Virus record (IMG/VR): IMGVR_UViG_3300021197_000416
Span: 1-24,837 of that record
Strand: one strand, 5' to 3'
From: a virus
DNA: 24,837 nucleotides
In this document: piece after piece, positions 1-21,594 of the stretch
Numbering within the stretch: the first letter of the stretch is position 1
Layout: each line of letters begins with the position of its first letter
The notes under the pieces: model-generated
The model's database searches: none
Seen by the model: only the letters and a program-made list of their open reading frames with translations
Told to the model about the DNA's origin: nothing
Made by a program: the position numbers and the translations under genes

Positions 1-158
1 TCCTCACGCCACCGGCAGCTTCAGCAGCAAATCTACCAAAGGCTGATGCTTACAACATGTCGAAGAAACGTCGTGAAAATTCTACGCCTGTCCGTTCAAC
101 ATTGCAGATCCCTCTGACGTCAGGTAGAGGCGGAAGCGGTGTGAATACAAACCGCTAA
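1..158 (+). CDS. Partial: C-terminal end of a gp7.3-like tail/virion assembly protein
   Basis: An open frame runs in from the left edge (first whole codon at 3) and stops at the TAA at 156-158, which shares its last base with the portal ATG. The 51 visible residues begin Ala/Pro-rich, then carry a basic patch (SKKRRE) and end in a Gly/Ser/Asn-rich tail (TSGRGGSGVNTNR). T7 gp7.3, the gene directly before the T7 portal, also has a basic patch followed by a short hydrophobic stretch and an SSGGGINI-type end. T7 gp7.3 is a small virion protein needed for adsorption-competent particles and leaves the particle on infection. Position and tail style support the same role here, but the N-terminal part lies outside the window and a 51-residue low-complexity match is weak. 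It could be an unrelated small protein. Confidence 0.55.
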   Translation, partial: LTPPAASAANLPKADAYNMSKKRRENSTPVRSTLQIPLTSGRGGSGVNTNR

Positions 159-1702
159 TGGCAAACTACGAAAGCTGCTCGGCTCGCTACGAAGCCCTTC
201 GCAGAAAGCGCGATCCGTTCCTTCGCCGCGCTCGCGAATGTGCTGAACTAACGATCCCGTCGCTCATGCCACCCGAAGGCCATTCCGACGCCACCCTTTT
301 ACCTGAGCCGTTTCAAGGTCTCGGCGCACGGGCTGTCGTCAGTTTGGCGTCAAGGTTGATGGTGGCAATGTACCCACCAGGCAAACCATCGTTTCGGTTA
401 GACATACCGCCAGAAGTTCGTATCCAACAAGGATCGATGGATATCGAGACCGACGTCGAGCAAGGTCTGATACTTTCGGAAAAACTGATCCAATCAGAGA
501 TTGAACGAAAAGAGTGGCGACCAGTCACTAACTTGGTGCTTCAGTACCTAATCGTAACCGGCAATGCGCTTGAGGTTATGCAGCCGGACAACACCATGCG
601 TGTCTTCCGTCTGGATCAGTACGTCGTCAGCCGCGATATGCAAGGCCAAGTTCGAGAGATCATCACTGAAGAGCATATGGCTCCTGAGAGCCTGCCGGAC
701 AACATTAAGCCGATGGTGTCGGCTGAAGACTACAGCGGTGATCGTGTTCAAATACTGACACACATTCAACGTGAGCAAGACGGAACTTACAGCGGATACC
801 AGGAGGTAAACCAAAAGAAAGTTCCTGGTTCTGATGGCACTTATGACCGCCTACCGTACAACGCTCTGACTTGGACCAACGTCATCGGCGAGGACTATGG
901 GCGCGGAAAGGTCGAAGAGCATCTGCCTGACTTCCGTGCCGTCGATTCACTGTCAAAGGCTATGCTGGACGGTGCGGCAATGGCGTCTCGAAACGTCACG
1001 ATGATCCGGCCAAATGCTGCTGGTGGTCTAAACCTTCGGCGACGGCTGGCCCGTGCCAACAACGGTGACATCATCGTCGGTAATCCTGAAGACATCGCTA
1101 TGCTTCAATACCAGAACCAAGGTGGTCTCCAGCTGACGGCACAAGAACTTGACCGGCAGTCCCGCGAGCTAGGTCTAGCGTTTCTATTAGGCTCCGCTGG
1201 TATCCGAGACTCCGAACGCACGACCGCCTACGAGATCCAACGCAATCAAGAGGAACTCGAAGGTGCTTTGGGCGGTGTCTATTCGCAGCTGAACCAGACC
1301 ATGCAGTTCCAACGTCTCAGTCGTTTAGTTGTTCAAATGCGTGAGAACGAGCAGCTGCCTCAGTGGCCCGACGGCATGGTCGAGCCAACCATTCTGACAG
1401 GTCTCGAAGCGTTAGGTCGTGAGGCTGATGTCAGCCGAGTGCAGGCCGCGCTCCAGTTCCTGCAAGGAATGCCGCCGGAAGTTCTCGGCTACGTCAAGTG
1501 GAACGAGCTGCTCGGCAAAGCGTTCTACGGATTGAACTTGCCTGACGCTGTCCGCACTGAACAAGAAATGCAAGAGCAGCAGCAACAGCAGCAAATGATG
1601 CAAGCTGGTGGTCAAGCGATGGCTGCTGGTGGTCAGGAAATGGCAACTCAGGCCGCACAACAAATGATGGCGGCGGCTCAACAACAACCAACCGAAGGAT
1701 AA
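158..1702 (+). CDS. Head-tail connector / portal protein (T7 gp8-like)
   Basis: Forms the dodecameric ring at the unique vertex of the procapsid through which DNA is packaged and ejected, and on which the tail is built. The 514 residues are close to T7 gp8 (536). Family landmarks appear in order: an N-terminal YE-x-R segment followed by CAELTIPSLMPP, then GLGARAVVSLASRLMVAMYPP near residue 55, YVVSRD near 150, the SDGTY loop, EDYGRGKVEEHLPDFRAVDSL around 245-265, the NGDIIVG/PEDI segment, and GLEALGR near 420. The last 50 residues are Gln/Met/Ala-rich with a run of six or more Gln, a low-complexity tail that T7 portals also have in milder form. The start ATG overlaps the upstream stop by one base (TAATG), so translation is probably coupled; no strong Shine-Dalgarno is visible. 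Confidence 0.97.
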   Translation: MANYESCSARYEALRRKRDPFLRRARECAELTIPSLMPPEGHSDATLLPEPFQGLGARAVVSLASRLMVAMYPPGKPSFRLDIPPEVRIQQGSMDIETDVEQGLILSEKLIQSEIERKEWRPVTNLVLQYLIVTGNALEVMQPDNTMRVFRLDQYVVSRDMQGQVREIITEEHMAPESLPDNIKPMVSAEDYSGDRVQILTHIQREQDGTYSGYQEVNQKKVPGSDGTYDRLPYNALTWTNVIGEDYGRGKVEEHLPDFRAVDSLSKAMLDGAAMASRNVTMIRPNAAGGLNLRRRLARANNGDIIVGNPEDIAMLQYQNQGGLQLTAQELDRQSRELGLAFLLGSAGIRDSERTTAYEIQRNQEELEGALGGVYSQLNQTMQFQRLSRLVVQMRENEQLPQWPDGMVEPTILTGLEALGREADVSRVQAALQFLQGMPPEVLGYVKWNELLGKAFYGLNLPDAVRTEQEMQEQQQQQQMMQAGGQAMAAGGQEMATQAAQQMMAAAQQQPTEG

Positions 1703-1708
1703 ACATTT

Positions 1709-2524
1709 ATGGCTCTTGAAGCCGAACAGGAAATCATCCCAGGCAGCGATGAATACAATCAGCAGATGGCTGATCGTTTCAACAATCCAGTGGACCCAGA
1801 AGAAGACGAAAGTCCGCAAGTCGCAGGACTGCCAAAAGGCGGTCAGGAAAAGTTTTACAACGCTGAAACAGGACTTTACGACTGGGAATCCCATGCGCGA
1901 GAACTTGAATATAACGCATCAGGTCGTCGTAAACCTGAAGCGGAAAACGAAGATCAACCGGAACTCAAGCAACCGCAAATCGAGCAGCCTGAAGCCGAAC
2001 AGGTCAACAGCATCGTCAACGCAGCCGGATTGGATGAAACCGCACTTCAAGAGAAAATTAGATCCAACGGTGATCTAAGTGAAGACGACTATGCAGCGCT
2101 TGCGAAGGTCGGTGTGCCGGAAGGTTTAGCTCGGACGTATGTCGAAAACCTGACGTTCCGTATGCAGGCCGAACGAGCCAGTGCGTATGAGTACGCGGGT
2201 GGCGAAGAGAACTGGCAGAAGATGTCTGCTTGGGCTTTGGAAAATATGACCGAGACTGAAGTCAACGGTCTCAACAATATGCTCGACGGTCCCGATTGGA
2301 AGCTCGCCATGGACGCCATGAAGGCGCGGATGGGACCGACGTTGGTCGAGACAGAACCACAGTTTCTCAAAGGCGAGCCGGTTCGTGGGTCTTCATTTGG
2401 GTATCGTTCAAAGAACGAGATGAAGGCCGATATGGCGCGTCAGGAATATCAAGATTCACCGGCATTCCGTCAGCAGGTCATGCAGAAAATGCAAGCAGCG
2501 ACTTGGGATCTCGATGACGTTTAG
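1709..2524 (+). CDS. Capsid assembly scaffolding protein (T7 gp9-like)
   Basis: Scaffold that directs assembly of the major capsid protein around the portal and leaves before or during DNA packaging. The 271-residue protein is acidic and largely disordered in its first 100 residues (many E, Q, P). The family core follows: DYAALAKVGVPEGLARTYVE near 130-150, AYEYAGGEENWQKMSAWA near 160-175 and TETEVNGLNNML near 182-193. The C-terminal helical part contains YRSKNEMKADMARQEY and SPAFRQQVMQKM, typical of the capsid-binding end of T7 gp9. It starts six bases after the portal stop and is followed by a strong terminator. It ends in an amber TAG; the same frame stays open for a further 53 codons to the TAA at 2684-2686 (see findings). 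Confidence 0.93.
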   Translation: MALEAEQEIIPGSDEYNQQMADRFNNPVDPEEDESPQVAGLPKGGQEKFYNAETGLYDWESHARELEYNASGRRKPEAENEDQPELKQPQIEQPEAEQVNSIVNAAGLDETALQEKIRSNGDLSEDDYAALAKVGVPEGLARTYVENLTFRMQAERASAYEYAGGEENWQKMSAWALENMTETEVNGLNNMLDGPDWKLAMDAMKARMGPTLVETEPQFLKGEPVRGSSFGYRSKNEMKADMARQEYQDSPAFRQQVMQKMQAATWDLDDV

Positions 2525-2530
2525 TTTCCC

Positions 2531-2556
2531 CTAACCGTTTTCCTCCCTGCGGTTAG
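2531..2556 (+). other. Small hairpin just upstream of the scaffold terminator
   Basis: A perfect 7-bp stem, CTAACCG (2531-2537) with CGGTTAG (2550-2556), around a 12-base pyrimidine-rich loop. No U tract follows, so it is not a terminator by itself. It lies between the scaffold stop and the main terminator hairpin and could protect an mRNA 3' end or be a processing site. The function is inferred only. Confidence 0.4.
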
Positions 2557-2563
2557 TAACTTG

Positions 2564-2600
2564 CAGAGACGGTTGTTCAATCAGCCGTCTCTGTTTTTTT
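2564..2600 (+). terminator. Strong rho-independent terminator between scaffold and capsid genes
   Basis: CAGAGACGG at 2564-2572 pairs perfectly with CCGTCTCTG at 2585-2593. A G-U pair and two more pairs extend the stem to 12 bp around a 6-base loop, and seven Ts follow directly (2594-2600). In T7 the main late terminator lies after the capsid gene; here there is also one before it. Some polymerases must read through for expression of later genes unless the capsid gene has its own promoter. Confidence 0.9.
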
Positions 2601-2707
2601 CGACAAGGCTTCTGCCGCTGAAACCAAGCAAAGACCCGGATAAGTCCGATAATCTGAGTGAGATCAAACGGCGCATTGAAAATTAAACCTGAAATTGGAG
2701 AAAACTT
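2601..2707 (+). promoter_or_regulatory. Capsid leader: inferred promoter region plus Shine-Dalgarno
   Basis: This 107-base stretch separates the upstream terminator from the capsid ATG. Because a strong terminator precedes it, a promoter for the capsid transcript is expected here, presumably one read by the phage's own RNA polymerase. I cannot identify that promoter from one copy: there is no T7 consensus, and the only sigma70-like element is GATAAT at 2648-2653 without a matching -35 box. The ribosome binding site is clear: GGAG at 2697-2700, seven bases before the ATG at 2708. Part of the stretch is also open in frame with the scaffold gene. Confidence 0.4.
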
Positions 2708-3700
2708 ATGGCGTTAGGTGACGCTTCAAGTCCAGTACGGTTTGGTAAAGGCGCATCGTCCCCAGTCGATAATCGTGAGCTGTTCCTCTCGATTGCCGGT
2801 GGAGAAATCTTGACCGCGTTTGATTCCGCTACCGTAACTTTGGACAAACACTTCGTTAAAGCCGTTCCCGGCGGTGCGAAAAGTTATCGCTTCCCGAAAA
2901 CCTGGAAGGCCGCTGCGGAGTATCATGTTCCCGGCACTGAACTGCTTGGGAATGACCTTTCGACATCGGAACAGGTCATCACAGTGGATGATATCCTGGT
3001 CTCGCATTACGCAATCGCGGACCTTGATCGCATTCTCTCTCACTTCGATATGCGTTCCGTAATCACGAAAGAAATGGGTCGTGCACTTGCCAAAGTGTTC
3101 GATCAAAACGTGTTCCGTCAGCTTATCCTTGCGGCTAACACAGCGGCTGCTTCGCCGTTCCCCGGCGGCACTGTAACGACCGACACCGGCCTTGCGGCCT
3201 CTGGCGGCGTCTATAGTGGCATCGAGTACATCGAAGCTATCCGCACCGCAAACATTGGGTTGTTCAACAAAGACGTTCCAGAAGACATGCCGCGCTATGC
3301 AGCAGTCAGCGTCGAGGTCTTTGATGCAATCAAATATGCGAAAGACAGCTCGAACAACTACCTCGTACTGAACCGCGACTTCGGTCACGGCGGTGCTGGT
3401 GGTGTCGACGCTCGTTCTGAAACGATGAATATCGACGGTGTGACTATCGTGAAGAGCCGGAACATTCCGACGACTAACGAGACGTCTACAGCGACGGTGT
3501 TCTCGAAGTACCGCGCTAACTACAGCAATACCGCTGTGGTCATGTGGTGTCCGCAAGCGGTCGCTACCGTGAAAATGCTTGATATCTCGCTCGAAACTGA
3601 GCGCGACGTCCGGCGACTTGAAGATTTCATGGTCTCGAAAATGTTCGTGGGCCACGGCGTTCTTCGTCCAGAAATGGCTGTTGTGCTGAAGTCCGCATAA
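2708..3700 (+). CDS. Major capsid protein (T7 gp10A-like)
   Basis: HK97-fold shell protein of the icosahedral head. The 330-residue length is close to T7 gp10A (345). Family landmarks: ELFLSIAGGEILTAFDSATVTLDKHFVKAV at the start, the E-loop region rich in FPKTW/AEYHVPGTEL, ITVDDILVSHYAIADLDRILSHFDMRSVITKEMG around 97-130, and the C-terminal MLDISLETERDVRRLEDFMVSKMFVGHGVLRPE, which corresponds to the LRDLALERARRANFQADQIIAKYAMGHGGLRPE end of T7. Translation starts at the ATG with GGAG seven bases upstream. The gene is flanked by terminators at 2564-2600 and 3714-3752 and so is probably transcribed largely as its own unit at high level. No extended 3' frame for a T7 10B-type frameshift product is apparent. 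Confidence 0.97.
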   Translation: MALGDASSPVRFGKGASSPVDNRELFLSIAGGEILTAFDSATVTLDKHFVKAVPGGAKSYRFPKTWKAAAEYHVPGTELLGNDLSTSEQVITVDDILVSHYAIADLDRILSHFDMRSVITKEMGRALAKVFDQNVFRQLILAANTAAASPFPGGTVTTDTGLAASGGVYSGIEYIEAIRTANIGLFNKDVPEDMPRYAAVSVEVFDAIKYAKDSSNNYLVLNRDFGHGGAGGVDARSETMNIDGVTIVKSRNIPTTNETSTATVFSKYRANYSNTAVVMWCPQAVATVKMLDISLETERDVRRLEDFMVSKMFVGHGVLRPEMAVVLKSA

Positions 3701-3713
3701 CAATCAACCAACG

Positions 3714-3752
3714 CAGAGGCCAGCCGTTCATTCGGTTGGCCTCTGTTTTTTT
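3714..3752 (+). terminator. Strong rho-independent terminator after the capsid gene
   Basis: A 13-bp stem, 3714-3726 with 3733-3745 (one G-U pair), closes a 6-base loop (TTCATT) and is followed by seven Ts at 3746-3752. The position matches the T7 T-phi late terminator after gene 10. The AAGGAG ribosome binding site of the next gene (3755-3760) begins two bases after the T tract, so the downstream genes appear to rely on polymerase read-through. Confidence 0.93.
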
Positions 3753-3765
3753 ATAAGGAGTTCAG

Positions 3766-4365
3766 ATGGGTCTATCCAAGCTCGAAGCCGTAAATATCAT
3801 TCTCGATAGCATCGGTGAGACACCAGTATCTAGCCTGGACTCTGGCCTTCCTGATGCCGAAGCAGCTGAGACGAAGCTCAACGAGATCAACAAAACCGTC
3901 CAAGCCAAAGGCTGGCACCAGAACACTGAAAAGAGCTTGAAGCTCACGCCGGACAGCAACAGCAACATTGTCGTTCCACCCAGCTATCTGCGGATAGACA
4001 CAACAGATAATTCGAAAAGCATCAATGTGACGCCGAGAACTTTCGATAACAAATCGATGCTCTACGACGTCAAAAAACAATCTTACGTTTTCACAAATGA
4101 TCTCTATTGCGACATCGTTTTGTTGCTGGACTACGAAGATCTAACGCTTGAGTTGTCGAATTACATTGCGTACCGCGCAGCTCGAAAGTTCCAGGAAGCG
4201 CAGATGCAGTCCACCACGCTCGACGGGTTCACTGTCCGAGGCGAAATGGAGGCATACGCTGCGCTGATGGATGCTGAGACTGAAAACGAAGACACCAACA
4301 TCCTGACCGACAATGAACACTGCTGGTACACGACCAATCGCAATCACCGGATGATAGGCTTCTAA
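3766..4365 (+). CDS. Tail tubular protein A (T7 gp11-like)
   Basis: Gatekeeper ring protein that attaches below the portal after packaging and carries the nozzle and fibres. The 199 residues match the T7 gp11 length (196). Visible family features: an N-terminal LEAVNIILDSIGETPVSSLD helix, then EAAETKLNEINKTVQAKGWHQNTEKS, VPPSYLRID, YDVKKQSYVF, and the helical LSNYIAYRAARKFQEAQMQS segment. AAGGAG at 3755-3760 is an excellent ribosome binding site five bases before the ATG. Its stop overlaps the next ATG by one base (TAATG at 4363-4367). It sits immediately behind the post-capsid terminator. Confidence 0.95.
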   Translation: MGLSKLEAVNIILDSIGETPVSSLDSGLPDAEAAETKLNEINKTVQAKGWHQNTEKSLKLTPDSNSNIVVPPSYLRIDTTDNSKSINVTPRTFDNKSMLYDVKKQSYVFTNDLYCDIVLLLDYEDLTLELSNYIAYRAARKFQEAQMQSTTLDGFTVRGEMEAYAALMDAETENEDTNILTDNEHCWYTTNRNHRMIGF

Positions 4366-6683
4366 TGGGTAGACTCGTCGAGCAATCGATTAAAACACTA
4401 TATCAAGGGGTATCGAGACAACCAGATTCCGTTCGACTAGCCGGACAGGTTGAAGAAGCAACAAACGTTTTAATGTCTGTCGTAACCGGTGGTTTCGAAA
4501 CGAGACCAGCAAGCCGTCACGTAGCGGAAAACACGTTCGTCACAAGTGCTGCCGATAAGCCGTGGGTCTACAGCTATGCTCGCGATACCGCCGAGAAATA
4601 CATCATTGTTGTTAAAAATGGTGATCTAAAGATCTACGATACCGATGGTGTCGAAAAGACCTGCACGTTCCCCGATGGCAAGACCTATTTAAATACGACA
4701 GACCCCAGCGTAACCTTTAGCGCCGCGACGATTGCAGACCGCACGATCATAGCGTCAAACGCTGTGGTCCCTGCTATGACAGCCAGCACGTATAGTGAAA
4801 GTCCTGCGCGCGGTTTGATTAACTGCCGGACGACAAACAGCGCTACGGCTTATTCGATCAGTATCGATGGTTCGAGCGTCTGGACCTACAGCGGCGCTGC
4901 CAAGTCCGCCACCGAAATAGCCGATAACATCGTCGCGAACATCTCGTTACCAACGGGCGTGACGATGACGCGAGATGACCTGACTTTGGTTCTATCGAAG
5001 TCGACGGCGTTCACACTGACACAGACCGGATCTGACGATACCTATGGACCCCTTGCGATCCGGCAGACAGTTCCCAAGCGGACCCACCTGCCCGCGTCTG
5101 CTCCTGATGGTTATCTCGTTAACGTTGGCGCTACTATTGACGGCAATGCGTCCGGCTACTGGTCAGTGTTTTCAACATCGACGAACACATGGACGGAAGC
5201 AGCGGACCCCGGCGCTAACAACGCATTTGCCGCCAGCACGATGCCGCATTGGCTCACTCGTCAGGCGAATGGAACCTTTGTGTTTGAAGAAGGGTCATAT
5301 GTTTCTCGTATTGCAGGCGATGCCGTTACGTCACCGGAGCCTGATTTCATCGGGTTTCCAATCAATGAAATTGTGTTCCATCGTAATCGCTTGGCCTTTG
5401 TGTCGGGCGAACACGTAACGTTCTCTCAGTCGTCAAACTACTTCACGTTCTGGTCGGACTTCAGCACAGAGGCGCTGGACAGCGATAGTTTCAGTGTGAC
5501 TGCCAGCAGCACCTCGGTAAACAAACTGACTAACGCACACGCTTTCCGCAAAGCTCTCTTCGTCTCCAGCGATAAGAACCAATTTGAAGTTAGCGGTGAG
5601 GAAGTCCTAACGCCGTCTAAGGCATCCATCGATCTGACAACGACGTATCTAGCGGAACCTAATTGCCAGCCGTTCAACCTCGGCAATACGCTTTATTTTG
5701 CAGCAAAGTCTGGAAGAGACGCTGTCGTTTATGAGTATCAATACTCCGACGACACGTTGTCGAATAAGGCAGCGGACATCACGCTACACGCTCTCGGATA
5801 TGTACCCGCACCAGTTGTCAAAATGACCGGCGATCCATCGTCCGACATGCTGTTTCTCATTAGTAACAAAGATCGCAGCCGGATCTATCTGTACCGGATG
5901 TACATCGACGGTGACAAAAAGGCTCAGAGTGCCTGGCATTGCTGGGACTACGGTGGAGCGACAACTCACGTCCATTGGATCGAAGTGATCGAAGGTGATC
6001 TCTACATGCTGATCACCCGTGGATCGAAGACCTTCTTGGAACGTTCAGTCCTGCGATACGAAACGTCTGATGAAAAACACCCGTATCAAGTCGCTCTCGA
6101 CCAGCAGACAAACGTCACCGGCAGCTACAACGCTGGCACCAACTTAACCACGTGGACCACTCCGTATCCTCATGGGTCAGCGGCAACTGTTGTTCTGTCG
6201 ACCGACTTTGCTGTTGGTCAACAAGGCGAGCGTCTAACGGTCAGTTATCCAACGACCACGACGATCACAGCAACAGGTGACTACAGTGCCGGTGCGTCGA
6301 TCATTGGAGTTCCGTTTGATCAAACGGTTCAGTTGTCAAAGATTTATGTGCGAGAAGCTGCGAACCAGGCCGAAACGATTACGACAGGTCGCTACCAGCT
6401 TCGCCGGATTCAAGTGAACTACCAGAACACCGGTAACTTCAACGTGAACGTGACGCCACGCTTCCGAGATCCAATGTCCTTCAACTTCAGCGGTCGCATC
6501 ATTGGAGCCGGTGAAAACCTGGTTGGTACAACAGCGATCTCTGGTGTGGGTACGTTCAAAATCCCAGTTCAAACAGACGCAGCGACAGCTGTAATTGAAA
6601 TCAAAAACAGCACGGAGAAACCAATGACGATCACGTCTATCGATTTCGTTGGTTTCTTCAACGAATTGTCGAGGGCTGAATAA
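4365..6683 (+). CDS. Tail tubular protein B / nozzle (T7 gp12-like)
   Basis: Forms the hexameric nozzle of the short tail. The 772 residues compare with 794 in T7. The N-terminal signature SIKTLYQGVSRQPDSVRLAGQVEEATNVL (residues 8-36) is the hallmark of this family. Next come FETRPASRHV and the beta-rich body, including DFIGFPINEIVFHRNRLAFVSGE near 340, LFVSSDKNQFEVSG near 395 and HWIEVIEGDLYMLITRG near 540. The C-terminal beta region ends in TITSIDFVGFFNELSRAE. It overlaps the gp11-like stop by one base and is followed two bases later by the gp14-like ATG. Confidence 0.97.
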   Translation: MGRLVEQSIKTLYQGVSRQPDSVRLAGQVEEATNVLMSVVTGGFETRPASRHVAENTFVTSAADKPWVYSYARDTAEKYIIVVKNGDLKIYDTDGVEKTCTFPDGKTYLNTTDPSVTFSAATIADRTIIASNAVVPAMTASTYSESPARGLINCRTTNSATAYSISIDGSSVWTYSGAAKSATEIADNIVANISLPTGVTMTRDDLTLVLSKSTAFTLTQTGSDDTYGPLAIRQTVPKRTHLPASAPDGYLVNVGATIDGNASGYWSVFSTSTNTWTEAADPGANNAFAASTMPHWLTRQANGTFVFEEGSYVSRIAGDAVTSPEPDFIGFPINEIVFHRNRLAFVSGEHVTFSQSSNYFTFWSDFSTEALDSDSFSVTASSTSVNKLTNAHAFRKALFVSSDKNQFEVSGEEVLTPSKASIDLTTTYLAEPNCQPFNLGNTLYFAAKSGRDAVVYEYQYSDDTLSNKAADITLHALGYVPAPVVKMTGDPSSDMLFLISNKDRSRIYLYRMYIDGDKKAQSAWHCWDYGGATTHVHWIEVIEGDLYMLITRGSKTFLERSVLRYETSDEKHPYQVALDQQTNVTGSYNAGTNLTTWTTPYPHGSAATVVLSTDFAVGQQGERLTVSYPTTTTITATGDYSAGASIIGVPFDQTVQLSKIYVREAANQAETITTGRYQLRRIQVNYQNTGNFNVNVTPRFRDPMSFNFSGRIIGAGENLVGTTAISGVGTFKIPVQTDAATAVIEIKNSTEKPMTITSIDFVGFFNELSRAE

Positions 6684-6684
6684 A

Positions 6685-7254
6685 ATGTGTGGACCCATTG
6701 CAAGCATCGGCTTGGCAATCGCATCGTCGGCAGCAAATTTCGCGATGGCAAGCAGCCAAGCCGCGCAGCAAGAAAAGATAGCAAACGCACAGGCACAAGA
6801 AGCCTATCGAGCAGCCAACGAACGTGTTCTTGCGGAGTACGCTGAAGCTAACCGACAAATTAGTGAAGCGCAGCAAAAAGAAATTGAAGACGCATCTGAC
6901 CTGATCTCCCAAGCACGTAACGATCTTGCGGTACTAACAGTCGCCGATAATGGCGCTCTGTCGGATAGCGCTCTCGGAAACATATACGGCGCAGCCTACT
7001 ACGATCACTCTTCCGATCTACAGCGTCTCGACGAGAACACTGACAAGCAGATCGCGTCTATCGAGTCCAACAAAGGAGCTGCACAGCAGAACTATTTGAA
7101 CTCCGTTAATGCTGCCAAAAATCAGACACAGAACGTCTTGATGCAGACAAATGCAAACCGCAACTCAGCAATGCTGCAAATCGGAACGTCAGTCGCCAGT
7201 GCCGGTACGAGCGCCTACAGGCACCAAGAAACGATTAAAGCGTTAAAGGCGTAA
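6685..7254 (+). CDS. Internal virion protein (T7 gp14-like)
   Basis: Core protein thought to be ejected first and to form the outer-membrane part of the DNA translocation channel. I chose the ATG at 6685, giving 189 residues, rather than an upstream in-frame ATG at 6649 inside the previous gene: 6685 has GAGGG about a dozen bases upstream and gives MCGPIASIGLAIASSAANF, matching the MCW...-plus-hydrophobic-helix start of T7 gp14 (196 residues). After the N-terminal hydrophobic segment (residues 4-24) the protein is Ala/Gln-rich and helical, with many short coiled-coil stretches and a Gly/Ala-containing end. It sits directly between the nozzle gene and the gp15-like gene, as in T7. Confidence 0.88.
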   Translation: MCGPIASIGLAIASSAANFAMASSQAAQQEKIANAQAQEAYRAANERVLAEYAEANRQISEAQQKEIEDASDLISQARNDLAVLTVADNGALSDSALGNIYGAAYYDHSSDLQRLDENTDKQIASIESNKGAAQQNYLNSVNAAKNQTQNVLMQTNANRNSAMLQIGTSVASAGTSAYRHQETIKALKA

Positions 7255-7265
7255 GGGGTCGAAAA

Positions 7266-10028
7266 ATGAAAGATCAATTTAGGCGTTTTAGCAGCGCAAT
7301 GCCGCGTTTTACTCAAGGTCGCGTAACAGCCGCCGGGGTATCACAACAAGCTGTTCCTGACTTTCAGTCATCTATGCGCGGTCTAAACCCGATGGCTGGT
7401 GATATGACCGGCGCGTTCCAAAAGTTCTTTGGGTCTCTTAATGAGTCCGCTCAGTCGATTGTGGACACCCAGAACAGGATCGAAATTCAGCGCGAAAAGG
7501 ACATCAATAAGTTTGCAGCACTAGCCGGAGAAGTCGCTGGTCAGCGTGTTGTTAACGATCCTGCCAACAAAGATAAATCACCGACTGAACTCGTGGCGCT
7601 CAACCCAGACCGGTTTGACTACAAAGGCGAATCAATTACCGGAAGACGCTCGTTTAGTGAAGAGTTCTCGAAAGCAGTTGGACGGCAGACAGGCACCGCC
7701 GCTTTCCTTCAGTTTCAAAGTTATCTTGACGAAAACCAAATTCCGTTAGAGCAAGCTGAAGCTGAAAAAGACAAATGGTGGACTGCCAATTTTGGCGAAG
7801 GCACCGGGAACCCGCACCACGATCTTTACGCTCAAACGACGTGGGCGAATAACATTGAGCAGTGGAGTTTCGACACTCAAAAACAACTCACAGCACAATC
7901 AAGAGAACGACTACAAACGACGGCAAATCGCAACGTTGCTCGGTTATTTGATACTCCTACTTTTGGCCTTAAAGAGATGGCCGAAGCGAATGCTATAATT
8001 GCAAAGGCGTTTCCTAATTTATCGGTCGGTCAAGTTCAGTCTCATGTAGTCGGCAAGATGCTCGATACCGCGTATAAAAAACCTGCTTTAGCTCATCGCG
8101 CTATACAACTGATGAACGAGCCTCCAGAAATAAATGACGACGGTGAGCTTGGTCAGAGTTTCCGTGAACGGTTTCCAAATGAATACCAGAAACACGCAGC
8201 CGTCTTAAAACAACGGTCAGACCAGCATATTACTCACGAAGGCGCGAGAGCAGTAGCAGCGGTGGATGCGAAAGTAGCCAGCATCGGGGCAATGCCGAGC
8301 GAAACGATAGCTGAGTTTAACGCTAAATATCAGGCACTCATTAACGCTGGGCTTGATATTGGCCTGCTTAACAACACGTCCGGCGTAGGTGGTAAAAACG
8401 TAAAAAAACTTAGCGCTAAAATTACTGAAATATTCACTGATCTAGGCATTAAACAGACTAACGCCAACATAATGCGAAGAGCGATGTTTGGCGCTGGACC
8501 ACCACTCCTTCCGCAGACTGATGCGTCACTGGAGGGTATGGGCGCGAACGAGGACTTTGAAAAACGTGCGCAGGAAATAGCTAGAAGAAACGTACCATCC
8601 AGCAGGCTTCCTTCCTGGATGACACCAGAGCAAAGGAACAACGCGTGGAATCAGGAGACGAGTAGTCTGGACCCATTGGGAAATGACGATGATGCTGCAA
8701 AATATGGTCAAGCCGGTCGTAATCTCTATCTGGGTAATGGAGGATGGATTGCAGAAGAATTTACAAATACGATGTACCAAGGCATTAACTCTAAAGATGT
8801 AAACCAGATTAAGCGAGCAATAAAAATTCTTGCTATAGTTGACGAAAAAGGAGAATGGTACGCTGCCAAACACTTTAAGAAAGACCCTTTAACTCTTCTT
8901 AAATACGAGGCGTATTCAATACCCGGCGCGCAGTTACAAGAAAAAATCGATCTATTTTCTAGTGACGACTTTCAAGCCGCAGTGAAAGATTTTAGCTTAG
9001 AGCGGTTAGTTAAAGCCGAAGATAGTGATGTTAAAAGTAAAGACGACATAAATGCTTGGCTGAACAAAAACTTCTACGGGGACGGCGAATATAGTAAAAC
9101 GATGGGCGAGCTTGTCCTCAACAATAATTATCGGCTTAGCAAGGATCCTGTACTTTCACCGGCAGTCAAAGCTGCTGTACCCGCCATTGCCAGGGTCGTT
9201 TACGCGACGCACCTGGTGCAAAACCGCGAGCTTGGCATTAAAGATCTCAGAGAAGAGGTCGCAAAATATCTAAGAAAGATTACGGTTCCAGGCATCGACG
9301 ATAACCCAGAGTTTGCTGATGCCACACCATTTGACCCATCGATCCCCGATGAAGCGAACCGCCGTAAGGTACGGTGGGGTCTGCACGTCGTTAATCCTTT
9401 AGGCAAGGTTGAAAACACGATTGCAAACACCCGGCGCGCCGTTGATGAAATCACAAGTACCGGCATCACCGGTCTTAGAACCGATGGCGAAATTCCAGAT
9501 TTATACACGATACCAAGCGACACCATAGCTGGACCTGCGCGGTTAATTATGGACCGCAATACGAGCGGCCCGTACATACTTCCGATAGGCGTACCGTTTC
9601 AGACGCAAAACGTCTACGACGAAGACGGTGAACGTTACCAACTTGCTGATCAATTTAACCTCTTCAGTCCAGGCTTCAAAAACGTCGACGTAAAGTTCAC
9701 TGGAGAAGAAGCCGCAGACAAAGAACTCGCATCCCGTTTTCTGCACAAATCAATCACTTTGCACCCTTTTGTACGAGGTGGAGAACTTCTCGGATACAGC
9801 ATGTCGATCATGCCTCATTTCCGCCAGTTATCTCCTAGCGATGAGGATCTCATACAACAGGCGCTAAACCCAGGACCACTTGTCTCACCGCCAGTCTCTG
9901 GTGTTGCGCAACCAGTTGAACGTCCACTCGCAGCAGCGACAGCAGAACAACGTCTTGAAGACGCAAACCAACGTGAACAGCGTCGATTAGAACAAATGCG
10001 AAGACTTAACGACGAGGGATTAAACTAA
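7266..10028 (+). CDS. Internal core / ejection protein (T7 gp15-like)
   Basis: Probable middle component of the ejectosome, which spans the periplasm during DNA entry. The 920 residues are longer than T7 gp15 (747). The N-terminus (QGRVTAAGVSQQAVPDFQSSMRGLNPM) is flexible and leads into helices with GAFQKFFGSLNESAQSIVDTQNRIEIQREKD, the layout seen in gp15 proteins. The C-terminal 50 residues are Pro- and then Gln/Glu/Arg-rich. I find no enzymatic motif. The assignment rests mainly on gene order, size and helical composition. The ribosome binding site is AAGGGG, about ten bases upstream. The part from about 7900 to 9250 looks richer in A+T and uses more ATA, TTA and AGA codons than its neighbours. 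The stop overlaps the next ATG by one base. Confidence 0.75.
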   Translation: MKDQFRRFSSAMPRFTQGRVTAAGVSQQAVPDFQSSMRGLNPMAGDMTGAFQKFFGSLNESAQSIVDTQNRIEIQREKDINKFAALAGEVAGQRVVNDPANKDKSPTELVALNPDRFDYKGESITGRRSFSEEFSKAVGRQTGTAAFLQFQSYLDENQIPLEQAEAEKDKWWTANFGEGTGNPHHDLYAQTTWANNIEQWSFDTQKQLTAQSRERLQTTANRNVARLFDTPTFGLKEMAEANAIIAKAFPNLSVGQVQSHVVGKMLDTAYKKPALAHRAIQLMNEPPEINDDGELGQSFRERFPNEYQKHAAVLKQRSDQHITHEGARAVAAVDAKVASIGAMPSETIAEFNAKYQALINAGLDIGLLNNTSGVGGKNVKKLSAKITEIFTDLGIKQTNANIMRRAMFGAGPPLLPQTDASLEGMGANEDFEKRAQEIARRNVPSSRLPSWMTPEQRNNAWNQETSSLDPLGNDDDAAKYGQAGRNLYLGNGGWIAEEFTNTMYQGINSKDVNQIKRAIKILAIVDEKGEWYAAKHFKKDPLTLLKYEAYSIPGAQLQEKIDLFSSDDFQAAVKDFSLERLVKAEDSDVKSKDDINAWLNKNFYGDGEYSKTMGELVLNNNYRLSKDPVLSPAVKAAVPAIARVVYATHLVQNRELGIKDLREEVAKYLRKITVPGIDDNPEFADATPFDPSIPDEANRRKVRWGLHVVNPLGKVENTIANTRRAVDEITSTGITGLRTDGEIPDLYTIPSDTIAGPARLIMDRNTSGPYILPIGVPFQTQNVYDEDGERYQLADQFNLFSPGFKNVDVKFTGEEAADKELASRFLHKSITLHPFVRGGELLGYSMSIMPHFRQLSPSDEDLIQQALNPGPLVSPPVSGVAQPVERPLAAATAEQRLEDANQREQRRLEQMRRLNDEGLN

Positions 10029-11794
10029 TGAGTCTGTTTGACCTCTTTTCAAACGAACCACTGAGCCTTGAGCATCTCGAAACCATTATGGACCCCGCCG
10101 AGTACAACAGAGAAGTTCATAATGCCATTCGTCAAAAAATGAAGGACGGCGGTTTTCTATCGCCGACCGAAAACGTCACAAATTTCAACATGAGCGATAA
10201 GGAAGATCCTGATGTATCTTTTGGCGACTGGATGCTTGGCATAATGCAGCGTGTCACAAACAAAGATCCGAGCGCACTTGATAAGCCCGGTGGCAAAGAC
10301 GCTTATTTCCAAAGGCGTTTCGAGTTCATCACGTCACACGAAGGTTGGCGTAAGAAGACATACAAAGATTCCCGGTTGCTGCGAACAGTGGGCTATGGCT
10401 TTAACCTTGAGGAACCGACAAACCGGGACGTTTATAAGAAAGCTCTGGGTAAGACCGACAAAGACTATGATGCACTTAGAGATGGTAAAACCACTCTGAC
10501 TAAGCGCGAAGGACGTATCCTTTTTGAAGCTGCGGCAGGTGCAGCGGAAACACTTATCTCAAACACTTTTGCCGACGTCGATCTGAAGGGATACCAACGT
10601 CTTGCGCTGGTTTCACTAGCGTATAACCACCCTAAGTTAATCGGTCCAAATCTGACAAAACATGTCAAAGCTGGAGACGCAGACGCCGTTATCGAAGAAA
10701 TACGCGAAAGATCCAATTTTCACAAAATACCCGGCATCGCGAACCGAAGAGCGGAAGAAGCGGATATGTTTTCTGGCATGTCTCCTGACGATGCAGAAGA
10801 GACCGAATGGTCACTTGGCAGTCTGTTAGGATTTAGCCGTGCTGAAGCCGCCACAATGACATCATCTGACGACCTGATTGAGAACGGTCGTGATCGTCAG
10901 CCGCCTCTGCCGCCTCGTCGTGAAGATTCGATCCAGCAAAATGAAGTCAACGAAGGTGTACCATTACCACCTCGTCGTGATCCACCAGAGGTTACGGAAC
11001 GTAAAAATCGTCAAATCAAACGCATCGCTGATTACCAGCAAATGAACCTCGAAGAAGGTGGAAGTGTCGAACCGCTTGAACAGGTTGCTCAGTCAGCTGC
11101 TACCAAACGCAATCCGATGGCTTACATCGTTGAAAAACTCATGGGAACGAAAGAAAGCACCAAGGAAGGCTCAGACACGCTTAAGGCTCTCTTCGAACAG
11201 CTTTTGCCGTCTATGGACTGGAAAAATATCAACCTTGATAGCGAAGCGAACCCGAAGACTTCTTTTGCATGGTGCGCGACTTTCATCAGTGCTGTGCTTT
11301 CAGCTACAGGTAATCTGCCAGAGAACGCACCGTCCATTGGTCAATTAGAGTCAGATTCTTGGCTAGTTCGTACTGCCAAAAAGATTGGTTTCAAGAACAA
11401 AAACGACGCCACTCGCGCTCTAGCGTACCAGTCCGTCGGCACAGACATACCGATGGATCGTAACGCACAATCCAGCAACGGCGCTCAACCCGTGGCAACA
11501 GCTGTACCAAAAGAGTTACCGATAGGTTCACTCGTTATCTTTGACTGGAACCTAAACAGTGACAAAAAAGGTGGTCATGTCGCGTTTTATGCTGGTCGAA
11601 CGCAGATGCGTCATTCCAAAAAGCTCGGCAAAAAGGTGCAGCATGTCCTCGTTCTTGGAGGAAATCAGGCAGACACAGTCAAGCTCTCATGGTTCCCTGT
11701 ACCTGACATTAAAAGCATGAAAAAGCTGAACTCAATTCCAGAAATGTCGGAACAGGAGCTGGCGCGTTTGAATGAACTTGTGGTCGCTTCATAA
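10028..11794 (+). CDS. Virion-associated bifunctional peptidoglycan hydrolase (GH24 lysozyme + CHAP/NlpC-like domain)
   Basis: A 588-residue protein with two separate cell-wall-degrading domains. Residues about 95-250 resemble T4-type lysozyme (GH24): FITSHEGW...YKDSRLLRTVGYGF places E105, D114 and T120 with the spacing of the T4 catalytic triad E11, D20, T26. Residues about 360-560 resemble the CHAP/NlpC-P60-like TIGR02594 family: WCATFISAVL (C416), PIGSLVIFDW, GGHVAFYAGR (H517) and VLGGNQADTVKLSWFP (N546). The linker (about 255-345) is disordered and contains PLPPRR twice. The first 80 residues have no signal peptide. One-base overlaps on both sides place it between the gp15- and gp16-like genes, so it is most likely an ejected virion protein that opens the wall during entry. 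A role in lysis cannot be excluded, as no other endolysin is in the window. Confidence 0.85.
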   Translation: MSLFDLFSNEPLSLEHLETIMDPAEYNREVHNAIRQKMKDGGFLSPTENVTNFNMSDKEDPDVSFGDWMLGIMQRVTNKDPSALDKPGGKDAYFQRRFEFITSHEGWRKKTYKDSRLLRTVGYGFNLEEPTNRDVYKKALGKTDKDYDALRDGKTTLTKREGRILFEAAAGAAETLISNTFADVDLKGYQRLALVSLAYNHPKLIGPNLTKHVKAGDADAVIEEIRERSNFHKIPGIANRRAEEADMFSGMSPDDAEETEWSLGSLLGFSRAEAATMTSSDDLIENGRDRQPPLPPRREDSIQQNEVNEGVPLPPRRDPPEVTERKNRQIKRIADYQQMNLEEGGSVEPLEQVAQSAATKRNPMAYIVEKLMGTKESTKEGSDTLKALFEQLLPSMDWKNINLDSEANPKTSFAWCATFISAVLSATGNLPENAPSIGQLESDSWLVRTAKKIGFKNKNDATRALAYQSVGTDIPMDRNAQSSNGAQPVATAVPKELPIGSLVIFDWNLNSDKKGGHVAFYAGRTQMRHSKKLGKKVQHVLVLGGNQADTVKLSWFPVPDIKSMKKLNSIPEMSEQELARLNELVVAS

Positions 11795-14700
11795 TGACAG
11801 AGATCATTGAACTGGACGTCGCGGGCGCAGAACGACGAGAGCAAATCCGAAATTTTCAAAATGCGGTAAACGGACATATTGATATCGCAAGGCCCGAAGA
11901 TGCCGGTGCGTTCGAGACTGCTGGCCTGATCTGGAGTCAAGAAACCATAATAGGCAGCGCGATTACTTATGGTCTTTCCAAAGACACACGCACTGGGTTC
12001 TACGAGTACGACAAAAACTTCAATCCGATCCGCCTTTGGAGCAATAATCGAGACCAATTTGACGACATTAGTCCGTATATCCGACAGGGCATGTTCAATG
12101 ACGTCATTAGCGAGCAGCAATTTCTGGACCGCCGTGAGCGTCTGCTCGACGAACAAAAGCGTCGGGAGCGTATAGCAAACGGCAGCGGCTGGGGTATGGC
12201 GTTGGGTATGGGTCTATCGCTGATAGACATCGCCACGCTCATGCCAATAGGCGGTTGGGTCTCAAAAGGTAACACCCTCGCAAAAGTCGGAAAGATGGCG
12301 TTTGCCGGTAGTACACTGACAGCTGCACAAGAAGCCGTTTTGCACATGCAGCAAGACCTTCGGACAAACGAAGAGTCCTTTATGAACATCGGCATCTCTG
12401 CGCCGATTGGCGGCGGCTTTGGTCTCTTTGCCAGCGCGTTAAACCCAGCGTCCAAGTTAAATATAAATCATCCTGAAAACCCGTTTCATAGAAACAATAA
12501 CATCGGAATGGGCTTCGCGAAGATCGGTGATGCCATCAGCGACAGTCTTATTTTCAAACGGACTGCAAAAGGGGTCGAGGTTGTACGCGACAGCAGTGTC
12601 GGTGCTGCAACGATTAAAACCGGAAAAGTTGTGAAAGCCGGTGTTGTCGACTTACCACTTCGAACGCTCGCCAAAGCACTCCCGGTCGGTCGGATGCTTT
12701 ACGCGCAATCCAACAAAGCACGCGAAATCGGTCAGAAACTTGTTGATGGCGGTGGAATACGCCTCGACACAGATGAGGTCGGTAAAGTGGTGTTGTCAGT
12801 CGATGACTATAAACCGTTCTTTATGAATGACTTTAATCAAACCTTTGAAAACGCGGCAGCTGCTTTCAACGAAATCCAAGAGAAACTTGCAGAAACCCTT
12901 GGTCAAACCCAAAACAGGACTGTACGTGCGACCGGTTCCTCAATGCGTCAAGCAGGTCGTTTCTTCACTGATCAAGCGGACGTTGTCCGGGGACGTGAGT
13001 CCGGCGGGCCGCAGACCGGTAGTCACTTCGAGGACTTTGAGTTCCAAGATGTCACTTACAAAATCTTATTCGAAGACCTCGATGAGAATACAATTAAAAA
13101 TCTGACAGATCGTTTTGGCGACAAGGGCGCAGACATTATTTTGAAGGCCGCTCGCAAGCAGGCGGGTGATATCCATCAGGTCAACCATCGTATGGAAAAC
13201 ATGATGGTTGAGGCAGGAATGATCACTGACAAGCAGCGAATGGGTGATGACTACGGCCTGGCTCAGTTGTGGAACCCTCGGTCAATGCGCGGTGGAAACC
13301 GTGAGGCCGCAGTAAATTTCTTTATGTCAAAGTTTCTCGACAAGCCGACAAATACACCTACGGATAAATATCCAAACGGTTATCTGATGGACGAGTTTGG
13401 AATCACCGAAGACCAGTACGCGATGCTTGGACGCGAAGAGGTCAAAGTTGGTGATGAAGTTTTGTCAGTTGATCAAGGCATAACAGCCAAACGCGAGATC
13501 CTCGAAGACTGGTCCGGTAACACCTACGACCGCGCAGTCCTGCAAGCTGAGATGGATCTCAAGGTTGCAGAGGCCAGTTTGGAAGCATCTCGTAAAGAAG
13601 CTGTATGGAGCAGCCGAGACCTCAGACGGAACGAAACGGAGTACCGTCATTCAACAGTCGAAGAAGCTAAGAAGATACTTGAGCATCGTGTGTTGGAAAG
13701 AGATCGAGCTGTTGCTGAACGCCAAAAGCTGACGCTTGAACGGCAGGCTAATGACGTTGAGATCCGTCAACAAGAAGCAGATCTAAAAGCTCGGATGGCT
13801 CAGTTTCACGACACTGGAAGCGCCACTAGGGAGTTAAGCAAAGACAGAGGTGCTGTAAAAGAAGAGGCACTGGGTGAGTTCAATGAAGCTGTAGAATCTG
13901 CCAGGACAAAATCTCGTCCAATCAACGTTGCGCGCTTTGAGGCTGAGCCACCTAACTTTAACACTAGAGCCATTAAAGCAGCCGGAAGAAAACGCAGCGC
14001 AGCAAATGAAGCAATCGCTGCAATTCCTGACGACGCCCTAGACGCAACAGTCGCTCAAGCGGCAACCCGTCCGATTAGAAGTGATGATCTAATTCGCTTA
14101 AAGGACCGTCAGGCACAGATTGCTCGGCAGCTGTCGAAGTTAGAAAGCCGTCTCGAACGACTGGACCCAAAGATTGATCGTGTTTCAAAAGCAGTCGAAG
14201 AGGCGACCGAAGCCAAACGCGCTGTAGTCAACGGAACAGCCGCTCTCAGGGATGCGAAAAAGGAAGCTAACAAAGCCTTTAACGCTGCGAAGAAAGATAA
14301 AAAGAAAGCTGAACGTGTTCTCAGAAGAGACTTTGGATTGTCAAGACGAGGCTCAACGCCAGACGACAGTTGGCTTGACGCAACCTATGGCATGAAACGT
14401 GAGGACTACCTAAAGCTCGGCAAAGAAGATGTCACGGTCGACGGTAAAGTCTATGACGTAGAGGCCGGTAAAGTTTTCCGAAAAGAAGTTATGGCTGCGT
14501 ACAAAGACCTACCGATGCAGAAGAAGACTGCCGGTCGTAAGTTGCCAGTCCATATGTATGTCGAAGACCTTGTCGACAAACTTGGAAATCAAAACAAAAT
14601 TCCGCGTGGTGTTCTTGAGTCAGAAGCGTTTGCGTCTAATCGAACCAAAGACCGGCAGATCCATCTGACCAAAGCAGAACGCCGTGAAGCTGTCCGGCTT

Positions 14701-16239
14701 GGTCTGCTGCGTAACGATTTGTACGGCGTCATGCACTCTGCACACGAAGATATAGCTGCACGTTTAGCTTTGCGAAAAGTCTTCGGAACGGAAAACGTAG
14801 ACGACATTATTCCAGACGTTAAGGCCGATTATCAAAGTCTTATCGATCAAGCCAGGAACCGCAAAGATCTCAAGAATCCTGCGAAATATATAAAGCGACT
14901 GGAAAAAGAGAGGGATGGTCGTATTAAAGACATCAAAGGTCTTTGGGACAGACAGCTAGGTCTACACGGTCTTCCTGAAGATCCTGATGACTTCTTTCAT
15001 TGGTCGCTCCAAAAGCTGCGAGCGGCCAACTTTATTAAATACGGCACGGGTTTCCTCGTCTCAAGCCTGACCGATCCGGCGTCCGTCGCCTTAACCGCTG
15101 GTTTCCACGCGCTCTCAATGAAAAATTATAGAGCAATGAAACGAGCAATGAAGGGGGCGAGTAGTGATGAGGTTCGCAGGATCGCTGTTGAGTCTGAGCG
15201 TGTCCTACATAACCACCGGACTTTAAAGATTGCTGACGTCGAAGACATCAGAACAATGGCCGGAATTGGTGACAGAGGAAGTATGAAACACAACGTTACT
15301 TCAGGCATCGACAGAGCGATGCAGGGAATGACGGATACCGCCAGCGTCCTTTCAGGAATGATCTGGTGGAACACTCGCCTTAAAGCAATGGCGGTAATGG
15401 AGATGCAGCACAACTTAGTTGGCTTGATGAAGCAGTACGACAGCCTATTTGCGAAGGCTTCTGCCGACAATAAGAAGGCAAAATTGGAAATTTCTAACCT
15501 TGCCAGCATCGGAATTGGGACAGAACAAGCACGTCGTATCAGTCAAATGATGCAGAAGCATCCACCGATAAAGGAGGATGGCGTCTTTGAGATCGAAATG
15601 AGCCGTTGGCTTGACGAAGGTGACATAGGTCAGAAAGCCTATACCGATGTTGAGTTTGCTATGCGTCGCGTCTCAAATCGAGCCGTAATGACGCCTGGCG
15701 TTGGTGAGACACCCTTGTTCATGTCCAAGGGTTTCGCCAAGACAATGATGCAATTCCAGACTTATGGATTTGTTATTCTCAATCGCTTCATTGTTCCCGC
15801 TCTGCAACGCGGAATTAGCTATGGCGACATGACAGCAATCTTGTCCATGGGTCTCGCAGCTATGCTTGGAACAGTCGTGGTTGGTGCAAAGGACTTGCTA
15901 CGAACCGGTGAGATCAAAGAGCGTAACGCTGCCGAATGGGCATACGATACTTTGGATCGCTCAGGATACTTGATGTACCTGACGGTTCCATCATCAATTG
16001 CGTTCAACGTAGCGAACGTAGCGTTTGGACTAAAGTCCGCGCCGTCGCGATACGCAAATCAAAATAACACTTGGGGCATACTCTTTGGCCCATCAGCGAA
16101 CACGCTCATGGACATCAGTGGTCTCGCTGGTGGTGTCGCTTATGGCAACGCTGACGCAATAGCGAAACACGGATCAAAACTATTGCCGTTCCAAATCCTC
16201 AAGCAAGTTGGGGATCGCGTTGTGGACTTCGGAGACTAA
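11794..16239 (+). CDS. Large internal core / ejection protein (T7 gp16-like, without transglycosylase domain)
   Basis: A 1481-residue protein, slightly longer than T7 gp16 (1318), in the gp16 position. It probably forms the inner-membrane part of the DNA ejection channel. The N-terminus shows no lytic transglycosylase (SLT) motif; wall-degrading activity is in the preceding gene instead. Hydrophobic segments lie near residues 130-155 (GMALGMGLSLIDIATLMPIGG), 1080-1105 and 1346-1369 (MTAILSMGLAAMLGTVVVGA), plus a further one near 1395. Residues about 575-850 are highly charged and predicted by eye to be coiled coil (many E, K, R, A). This coiled coil is bracketed by two diverged copies of a 36-residue motif at 534-569 and 864-899. 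The C-terminal section, with FMSKGFAKTMMQFQTYGFVILNRFIVPALQRG, resembles the membrane-active end of other podoviral gp16 proteins. The start overlaps the upstream stop by one base. Confidence 0.82.
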   Translation: MTEIIELDVAGAERREQIRNFQNAVNGHIDIARPEDAGAFETAGLIWSQETIIGSAITYGLSKDTRTGFYEYDKNFNPIRLWSNNRDQFDDISPYIRQGMFNDVISEQQFLDRRERLLDEQKRRERIANGSGWGMALGMGLSLIDIATLMPIGGWVSKGNTLAKVGKMAFAGSTLTAAQEAVLHMQQDLRTNEESFMNIGISAPIGGGFGLFASALNPASKLNINHPENPFHRNNNIGMGFAKIGDAISDSLIFKRTAKGVEVVRDSSVGAATIKTGKVVKAGVVDLPLRTLAKALPVGRMLYAQSNKAREIGQKLVDGGGIRLDTDEVGKVVLSVDDYKPFFMNDFNQTFENAAAAFNEIQEKLAETLGQTQNRTVRATGSSMRQAGRFFTDQADVVRGRESGGPQTGSHFEDFEFQDVTYKILFEDLDENTIKNLTDRFGDKGADIILKAARKQAGDIHQVNHRMENMMVEAGMITDKQRMGDDYGLAQLWNPRSMRGGNREAAVNFFMSKFLDKPTNTPTDKYPNGYLMDEFGITEDQYAMLGREEVKVGDEVLSVDQGITAKREILEDWSGNTYDRAVLQAEMDLKVAEASLEASRKEAVWSSRDLRRNETEYRHSTVEEAKKILEHRVLERDRAVAERQKLTLERQANDVEIRQQEADLKARMAQFHDTGSATRELSKDRGAVKEEALGEFNEAVESARTKSRPINVARFEAEPPNFNTRAIKAAGRKRSAANEAIAAIPDDALDATVAQAATRPIRSDDLIRLKDRQAQIARQLSKLESRLERLDPKIDRVSKAVEEATEAKRAVVNGTAALRDAKKEANKAFNAAKKDKKKAERVLRRDFGLSRRGSTPDDSWLDATYGMKREDYLKLGKEDVTVDGKVYDVEAGKVFRKEVMAAYKDLPMQKKTAGRKLPVHMYVEDLVDKLGNQNKIPRGVLESEAFASNRTKDRQIHLTKAERREAVRLGLLRNDLYGVMHSAHEDIAARLALRKVFGTENVDDIIPDVKADYQSLIDQARNRKDLKNPAKYIKRLEKERDGRIKDIKGLWDRQLGLHGLPEDPDDFFHWSLQKLRAANFIKYGTGFLVSSLTDPASVALTAGFHALSMKNYRAMKRAMKGASSDEVRRIAVESERVLHNHRTLKIADVEDIRTMAGIGDRGSMKHNVTSGIDRAMQGMTDTASVLSGMIWWNTRLKAMAVMEMQHNLVGLMKQYDSLFAKASADNKKAKLEISNLASIGIGTEQARRISQMMQKHPPIKEDGVFEIEMSRWLDEGDIGQKAYTDVEFAMRRVSNRAVMTPGVGETPLFMSKGFAKTMMQFQTYGFVILNRFIVPALQRGISYGDMTAILSMGLAAMLGTVVVGAKDLLRTGEIKERNAAEWAYDTLDRSGYLMYLTVPSSIAFNVANVAFGLKSAPSRYANQNNTWGILFGPSANTLMDISGLAGGVAYGNADAIAKHGSKLLPFQILKQVGDRVVDFGD
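13393..13500 (+). repeat. Internal protein repeat, copy 1 (gp16-like residues 534-569)
   Basis: The encoded motif FGxxxxxYxxLGxExVxV...V...V..G..xxE aligns without gaps to copy 2, exactly 330 codons downstream. By eye 11 of 36 residues are identical and about ten more are conservative. It lies just before the charged coiled-coil section. Confidence 0.6.
14383..14490 (+). repeat. Internal protein repeat, copy 2 (gp16-like residues 864-899)
   Basis: Partner of the copy at 13393-13500, with shared pattern (F/Y)G(I/M)...YxxLG(R/K)E(E/D)V and later V, V, G, E positions. It lies just after the coiled-coil section. The DNA similarity is low, so the duplication, if real, is old. Confidence 0.6.
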
Positions 16240-21385: not shown

Positions 21386-21594
21386 TGGAAGTCATTAAAC
21401 AACTGTTGCTGGTCATCGTTCTTTTGAACGCGGACGGTCAGTACACATCGAGTGCAATACCAGTCGTCGAGTGTCCCGAAGTCAGGTCTTTTCAAGCAGC
21501 GATGGAAGCCGGACGACGTTCTGGCGAGTTCAAAGCATGGATAGCTAATTGCACCACTGGTGAGTTTGTAATCACGAGGGATACACCAACATGA
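21385..21594 (+). CDS. Small putative exported protein of unknown function
   Basis: A 69-residue protein that starts with a one-base overlap and ends in an ATGA overlap with the holin gene. The first 15 residues (MEVIKQLLLVIVLLN) look like a short uncleaved or weak signal sequence. The remainder holds two cysteines, C30 and C56, that could form a disulfide in the periplasm. There is no lipobox at C30 that fits an outer-membrane spanin subunit well, because it is 10 or more residues beyond the hydrophobic stretch. Similar tiny proteins (hydrophobic start, VEC..., W-x-x-x-C) are common in marine phage lysis regions, function unknown. Confidence 0.55.
   Translation: MEVIKQLLLVIVLLNADGQYTSSAIPVVECPEVRSFQAAMEAGRRSGEFKAWIANCTTGEFVITRDTPT

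Follow-up and report, generated by a model that had tools for sequence, protein, structure and literature searches.

The window, by which we mean the whole stretch of 24,837 nucleotides that was analyzed (the 24.8-kb viral fragment of IMG/VR record IMGVR_UViG_3300021197_000416), carries a T7-type late gene set. Pfam- and PHROG-based assignments are available for the portal, the scaffold, the capsid, a phrog_446 tail protein, a gp16-like protein, a 3TM holin, and the large terminase, and the gp12, gp14, and gp15 labels are given on the basis of position and synteny. The terminase resembles those of Autographiviridae, and its best matches (approximately 40%) are from phages of Limnohabitans, Rhizobium, Roseobacter, and Pelagibacter relatives. 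The virus, known solely via environmental DNA, is by its gene content and terminase a T7-like phage of the marine Autographiviridae group, and its host is presumably a Gram-negative bacterium, judging from the phage family. The contig end (24755–24837) is a tandem repeat with a unit of approximately 20 bases (CTTTGTGTAGTCCCTGTGTA). The features considered here are the following.

6685–7254, + strand: gp14-like internal virion protein, labeled by position and synteny; this neighbor is kept in relatives
7266–10028, + strand: gp15-like protein, 920 aa, labeled by position; conserved neighbor in relatives
10028–11794, + strand: virion-type lysin gene, 588 aa, from the ORF, domain matches, and synteny with relatives
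10316–10777, + strand: predicted GH24 lysozyme domain, residues 97–250 (PF00959, AlphaFold2, Foldseek)
10340–10387, + strand: predicted GH24 triad codons E105 (10340–10342), D114 (10367–10369), and T120 (10385–10387), with T4-lysozyme spacing
10778–11098, + strand: linker, residues 251–357, with proline-rich stretches (LPPRRED, LPPRRDP) in the sequence, modeled with low confidence (pLDDT under 50)
11099–11743, + strand: predicted NlpC/P60 (papain-like) peptidase, TIGR02594-like, residues 358–572 (profiles, alignment, model)
11273–11665, + strand: predicted peptidase residues C416 (11273–11275), H517 (11576–11578), and N546 (11663–11665), invariant in 36 aligned sequences
11794–16239, + strand: gp16-like ejection protein, 1481 aa (phrog_342, E=2.9e-54)
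21591–21995, + strand: holin of the GTA_holin_3TM type (gene-transfer-agent 3TM; PF11351, E=2e-14)

The lysin gene is located inside the structural/ejection cassette, between the gp15-like and gp16-like ORFs, and it codes in this order for an N-terminal region, a GH24 lysozyme, a linker, and an NlpC/P60-like peptidase. It starts with ATG and shares one-base TAATG overlaps with both neighbors, at 10028 and 11794, so that the position and the double overlap described in the initial annotation are indeed found. For the upstream gp15-like protein, Pfam and PHROG searches give no match, and a tblastn search against known phages gives nothing.

The N-terminal half of the lysin is classified as a GH24 phage lysozyme by profile, catalytic triad, and predicted fold. 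PF00959 matches residues 103–244 with E=1.1e-11 (45.6 bits, above the cut-off of 22.3), and the endolysin family phrog_7 matches this half with E=5e-13. The E-x8-D-x5-T pattern, spaced as in T4 lysozyme, has a single occurrence in the lysin, at residue 105. The AlphaFold2 model of the lysin has blocks with pLDDT 61–92 across residues 91–250, and the top Foldseek matches of the GH24 half are T4 lysozyme and phage muramidases, with TMt up to 0.75 and E about 8e-5. The profile, the spacing, and the fold all agree with the GH24 lysozyme with E105, D114, and T120 that had been proposed for this gene.

The gp16-like protein appears to have no recognizable N-terminal lytic domain and is, judged by its profile matches, not a lysin of the T7 gp16 type. 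A search of its ORF for lytic Pfam domains finds none, and its residues 32–1467 align only to positions 218–1210 of the profile of phrog_342 ("internal virion protein with endolysin domain"). Because the transglycosylase of T7 gp16 comprises residues 1–156 (PMC8954989) and the phrog_342 match begins at profile position 218, the lytic part is the part that is missing, in agreement with its absence as stated in the initial annotation. It has been published that the peptidoglycan hydrolase can move from gp16 to the gp15 homolog (PMC8954989). Unrelated glycan cutters occupy the same cassette in other phages: an SLT domain in TL-2011b, a GH108 domain in ctHz2215, and a pesticin-type lysozyme in HTVC309P; in YIMV22061, the SLT domain is located at the gp16 N terminus. 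The HTVC309P protein, gp36 (L013:29040–30899), is annotated as hypothetical, and the pesticin-type lysozyme is at the N terminus of a gp16-like piece.

The C-terminal half of the lysin is, by sequence comparison and modeling, an NlpC/P60-like domain that resembles TIGR02594 without being a member of this family. TIGR02594 matches it with E=1.7e-5 and 25.1 bits, under the curated cut-off of 70.55, the Pfam profile NLPC_P60 with E=0.0016, also under the cut-off, and phrog_1259 with E=3e-10. W415, C416, H517, and VLGGN546Q are all invariant when 36 sequences are aligned; the relatives in this alignment were recruited by the VLGGNQ block, which holds N546, and therefore only the W-C pair and the histidine are independent evidence. 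The window domain is 22–32% identical to these relatives and is complete, from the N-terminal helices to the end. The first structure model is uninformative on the C-terminal half, because the C-terminal halves of the relatives of the lysin are not homologous to that of the window. The model built on the 36-sequence alignment has a pLDDT of 73.7 and a pTM of 0.76, and when this model is superimposed with VIA-align on the NlpC/P60 catalytic domain 7cfl, a Z of 10.3 is obtained, with 2.6 Å over 112 residues; the leading VIA-align matches (Z 10.3 and below) are mostly NlpC/P60 cell-wall endopeptidases. Foldseek gives weak matches for this half, the best being the LysK CHAP domain (E=0.025), and the clear fold signal comes from VIA-align. 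Thus, of the CHAP/NlpC-like (TIGR02594) domain with C416, H517, and N546 that had been proposed initially, the residues and the fold are retained, whereas the score of 25.1 bits does not place it in TIGR02594.

A tblastn search with the C-terminal half finds CRP-9 gp54 and EcP1 gp25 and, weakly, PM135 gp84, CRP-403 gp39, and CRP-804 gp40. TIGR02594 matches all five of these phage proteins, four of them above the cut-off. The peptidase domains of EcP1 gp25, PM135 gp84, CRP-403 gp39, CRP-804 gp40, and the CRP-9 gp54 N terminus share the invariant Cys, His, and GGNQ with the window domain. Unlike the domain in the window, they are either stand-alone proteins or, next to the portal, the N-terminal part of a large one, and none is fused to GH24. 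CRP-9 gp54 (L174:5815–10002) has 1395 aa, lies one gene past the portal, and begins with the TIGR02594-like peptidase; several marine contigs (L180–L191) share this arrangement, which suggests that virion peptidases exist elsewhere.

Neither the lysin nor the gp16-like protein finds a relative when used to search viral contigs directly. The relatives described here were reached via the terminase (48 IMG/VR loci, 63–92% identity), followed by an alignment-based search, by which the lysin domain was found in 48 relative loci (L104–L151) that are not independent, as several of them represent identical or nearly identical records. GH24 is present in all of them, either in a gene of its own or in a fusion to the gp15-like protein, and a gp16-like ORF follows the lysin in 45 of the 48; the other three (L104, L115, and L151) end within approximately 70 bases of the lysin. 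Five architectures are seen: (a) GH24 with the peptidase, in the window; (b) an intact E-D-T triad with another C-terminal domain (L104–L115); (c) in a larger set, a lysozyme that lacks the Asp and has the Thr replaced by His, followed by a homolog of the C-terminal domain of (b) (hhalign, probability of 98 and E=1.6e-14); (d) a protein of 298 aa without extension (L116–L119); and (e) a lysozyme that forms the C terminus of the gp15-position protein, which has 1130–1222 aa when full-length (L126, L128, L130–L135, L137, L139–L141, L143–L145). One member of (b), L064, matches the end of phrog_7348. The stand-alone relatives, of approximately 470–620 aa, have a conserved C-terminal domain other than that of the window, without evident catalytic residues. 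Of 24 distinct relatives, 10, the window included, have both the Asp and the Thr of the triad, and the other 14 have His for Thr and no Asp. These 14 distinct domains, in which Glu is kept, are those of L120–L125, L127, L129, L136, L138, L142, and L146–L151; the same Thr-to-His substitution has reportedly been engineered in T4 lysozyme as T26H. Since GH24 is present in all 48 loci and the architectures vary, the lysozyme is a fixed part of the cassette with modular surroundings.

The fusion of GH24 and peptidase is seen in one contig, the window. No counterpart of the peptidase half is found in the relatives of the lysin gene, no GH24 in the same frame is found in 55 further loci with this peptidase, and the usual C-terminal domain of the group, or a remnant of it, is absent across the whole window. 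L104 is the nearest lysin-bearing relative; its portal, capsid, and gp11 are 96%, 94%, and 92% identical to those of the window, and its gp15 is only 38% identical; the lysins match at 60%, over residues 1–306 only. For the nearest relative, the comparison of window positions 158–10028 with L246 (record G031) gives 92–96% for the portal, the capsid, and gp11, 66% for gp14, 38% for gp15, and 60% for the N-terminal half of the lysin. With the portal, the capsid, and gp11 at 92–96% and gp15 at 38%, the ejection cassette is changing much faster than the capsid genes, and this pattern of identities points to fast change or exchange of the cassette. By the same comparisons, the peptidase is seen as a replacement of the C-terminal slot in the window only, the rest of the group keeping the older domain. 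It follows that the design described as unusual in the initial annotation is so for its peptidase half; a lysozyme outside gp16 is, on the evidence of the 48 relative loci and the published move of the hydrolase, normal for this group, and the added peptidase is the oddity.

These observations on gene order, the two domains, their residues, and the domain replacement are best explained if this T7-like phage has a bicatalytic virion-associated lysin, which would cut glycan and stem peptide for cell entry; the probability of this reading is estimated at about 0.6. The lysin would be produced together with the ejection proteins, packaged alongside them, and ejected with gp14, gp15, and gp16 into the periplasm, ahead of the DNA. 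There, the MurNAc-GlcNAc backbone of the glycan would be cut by the GH24 half, and the stem peptide or the cross-link by the NlpC/P60-like half, generating a local opening of the cell wall for the gp15/gp16 tunnel. The protein would thus assume the task of the N-terminal transglycosylase of T7 gp16 that is missing in the gp16-like protein, and the peptidase would have taken the slot of an older, non-enzymatic-looking C-terminal domain. Packaging, ejection, and the activity and substrate of each half are suggested by the position of the gene, by the fusion with the gp15-position protein in relatives, and by the glycan cutters in the cassettes of other phages. The GH24 domain is tied to the gp15-position protein, as it forms the C terminus of that protein in some relatives.

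The main rival reading, conceivable but unlikely, is that the protein is (also) an endolysin, acting in lysis from within, alone or besides entry, after release via the GTA-type holin (21591–21995). This holin is present in the window, in which no other lytic gene is recognized, the window being a fragment, but the lysin gene is far from it and is translationally coupled between structural genes, and relatives fuse the same domain to their gp15-position protein. An M15 peptidase, likely an endolysin, is found above the cut-off in ten relative records, and it is beside the terminase in all three that were inspected; these M15 peptidases count in favor of the virion-associated lysin as the role of the GH24 protein. 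Yet they are above the cut-off in ten records only, and all nine of these in which the lysin is seen carry the degenerate E..H lysozyme, whereas no M15 or T7-type amidase is found in those intact-triad (E-D-T) records that were searched. In a 43.8-kb relative with an intact triad (G029), the gp15-fused lysozyme is the sole cell-wall enzyme among the 25 listed of 32 Pfam families, and the stand-alone relatives of the C-terminal half include a holin-adjacent gene in PM135. A separate endolysin is not identified by profile searches of the fragments of the window's own subgroup, ORFs without a match in several fragments of close relatives yield no M15 or T7-type amidase, and second TIGR02594 copies or T7-type amidases are not found in the relatives. 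Against this, both the window and the contigs closest to it are fragments, most of which lack the early regions, and Pfam can miss endolysins. In L239 (1405–1812) and L243 (11310–11768), an M15 peptidase adjoins the terminase without annotation in those records. Quite improbable is the variant in which a single bicatalytic lysin, muramidase and peptidase, serves both entry and lysis, such that no separate endolysin would be needed.

The same doubtful standing is given to the idea that only the lysozyme works, the C-terminal half being structural, wall-binding, or a decaying acquisition. In the relatives, another domain, in which no catalytic residues are evident, takes the place of the C-terminal half, such that the slot may mainly serve attachment to the virion, and the peptidase of the window scores weakly against the profiles and contains a large insertion; but at 22–32% identity it still has the Cys, the His, and the GGNQ block, some of which decay would be expected to have removed. 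An assembly or binning artefact, joining the N-terminal half of a lysin to an unrelated peptidase, is very improbable. Although a second contig with the fusion is not seen (near-identical records may be hidden in the search), there is one open frame of 588 codons, the G+C fractions of the two halves are equal (0.482 and 0.479), the peptidase domain is whole, its N-terminal helices included, and the 3' end enters the expected gp16-like gene by a one-base overlap, as in L108–L112.

When the bicatalytic virion-associated lysin is compared with known systems, T7 gp16 shares the cassette and the inferred task, an ejected protein opening the peptidoglycan locally, but the enzyme of the window is a separate protein of the GH24 family with a second, peptide-cutting domain. 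Also in SP6 gp36, K1-5 gp38, and phiKMV gp36 (PMC5380687), and in K1E/K1-5 gp35 (PMC8954989), a lysozyme-type enzyme is carried by an internal protein that is not of the T7 gp16 type; these are likewise T7-like phages of Gram-negative hosts, in which the lysozyme is the sole lytic domain, inside a large ejection protein. The marine Autographiviridae lysins of L104–L151 have the same gene position and GH24 domain as the window but are all without the peptidase, having another domain, none (298 aa), a fusion to the gp15-position protein, or a triad in which Asp is lost and Thr is replaced by His. Glycan-cutting and peptide- or amide-cutting domains are combined in one virion protein in CwlP (SP-beta), HydH5 (phiIPLA88), gp61 (phiMR11), and gp49 (phi11) (PMC5380687, PMC3665550); all four are siphovirus tail proteins, from phages that infect Gram-positive bacteria, whereas the protein in the window belongs to the ejection cassette of a T7-like phage and has a fold pairing of its own. 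According to a 2017 review, the virion lysins with two lytic domains are all from phages of Gram-positive bacteria, and the sole demonstrated virion endopeptidase of a phage with a Gram-negative host is phi6 P5 (PMC5380687); a later counter-example was sought in the open-access literature and none was found. Hence, the placement of the lysozyme and the swapping of domains are already known, and the pairing with a peptidase in a T7-like ejection cassette, seen in one contig, appears to be new.

If the proposed function is correct, thin-walled hosts can likewise select for an entry step in which both types of bond are cut. The group is also a natural experiment on the C-terminal slot of an ejected lysin, which is filled by a non-enzymatic-looking domain, by nothing, or by a peptidase, with capsid genes that are nearly identical. 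The usual C-terminal domain of the group (L110:4395–4964) is also present in HTVC115P gp40, with weaker matches in CRP-4 gp36 and SIO1 gp23 (records MN698247.1, MK613346.1, and NC_002519.1), and it may therefore be a domain that marine podoviruses have in common.
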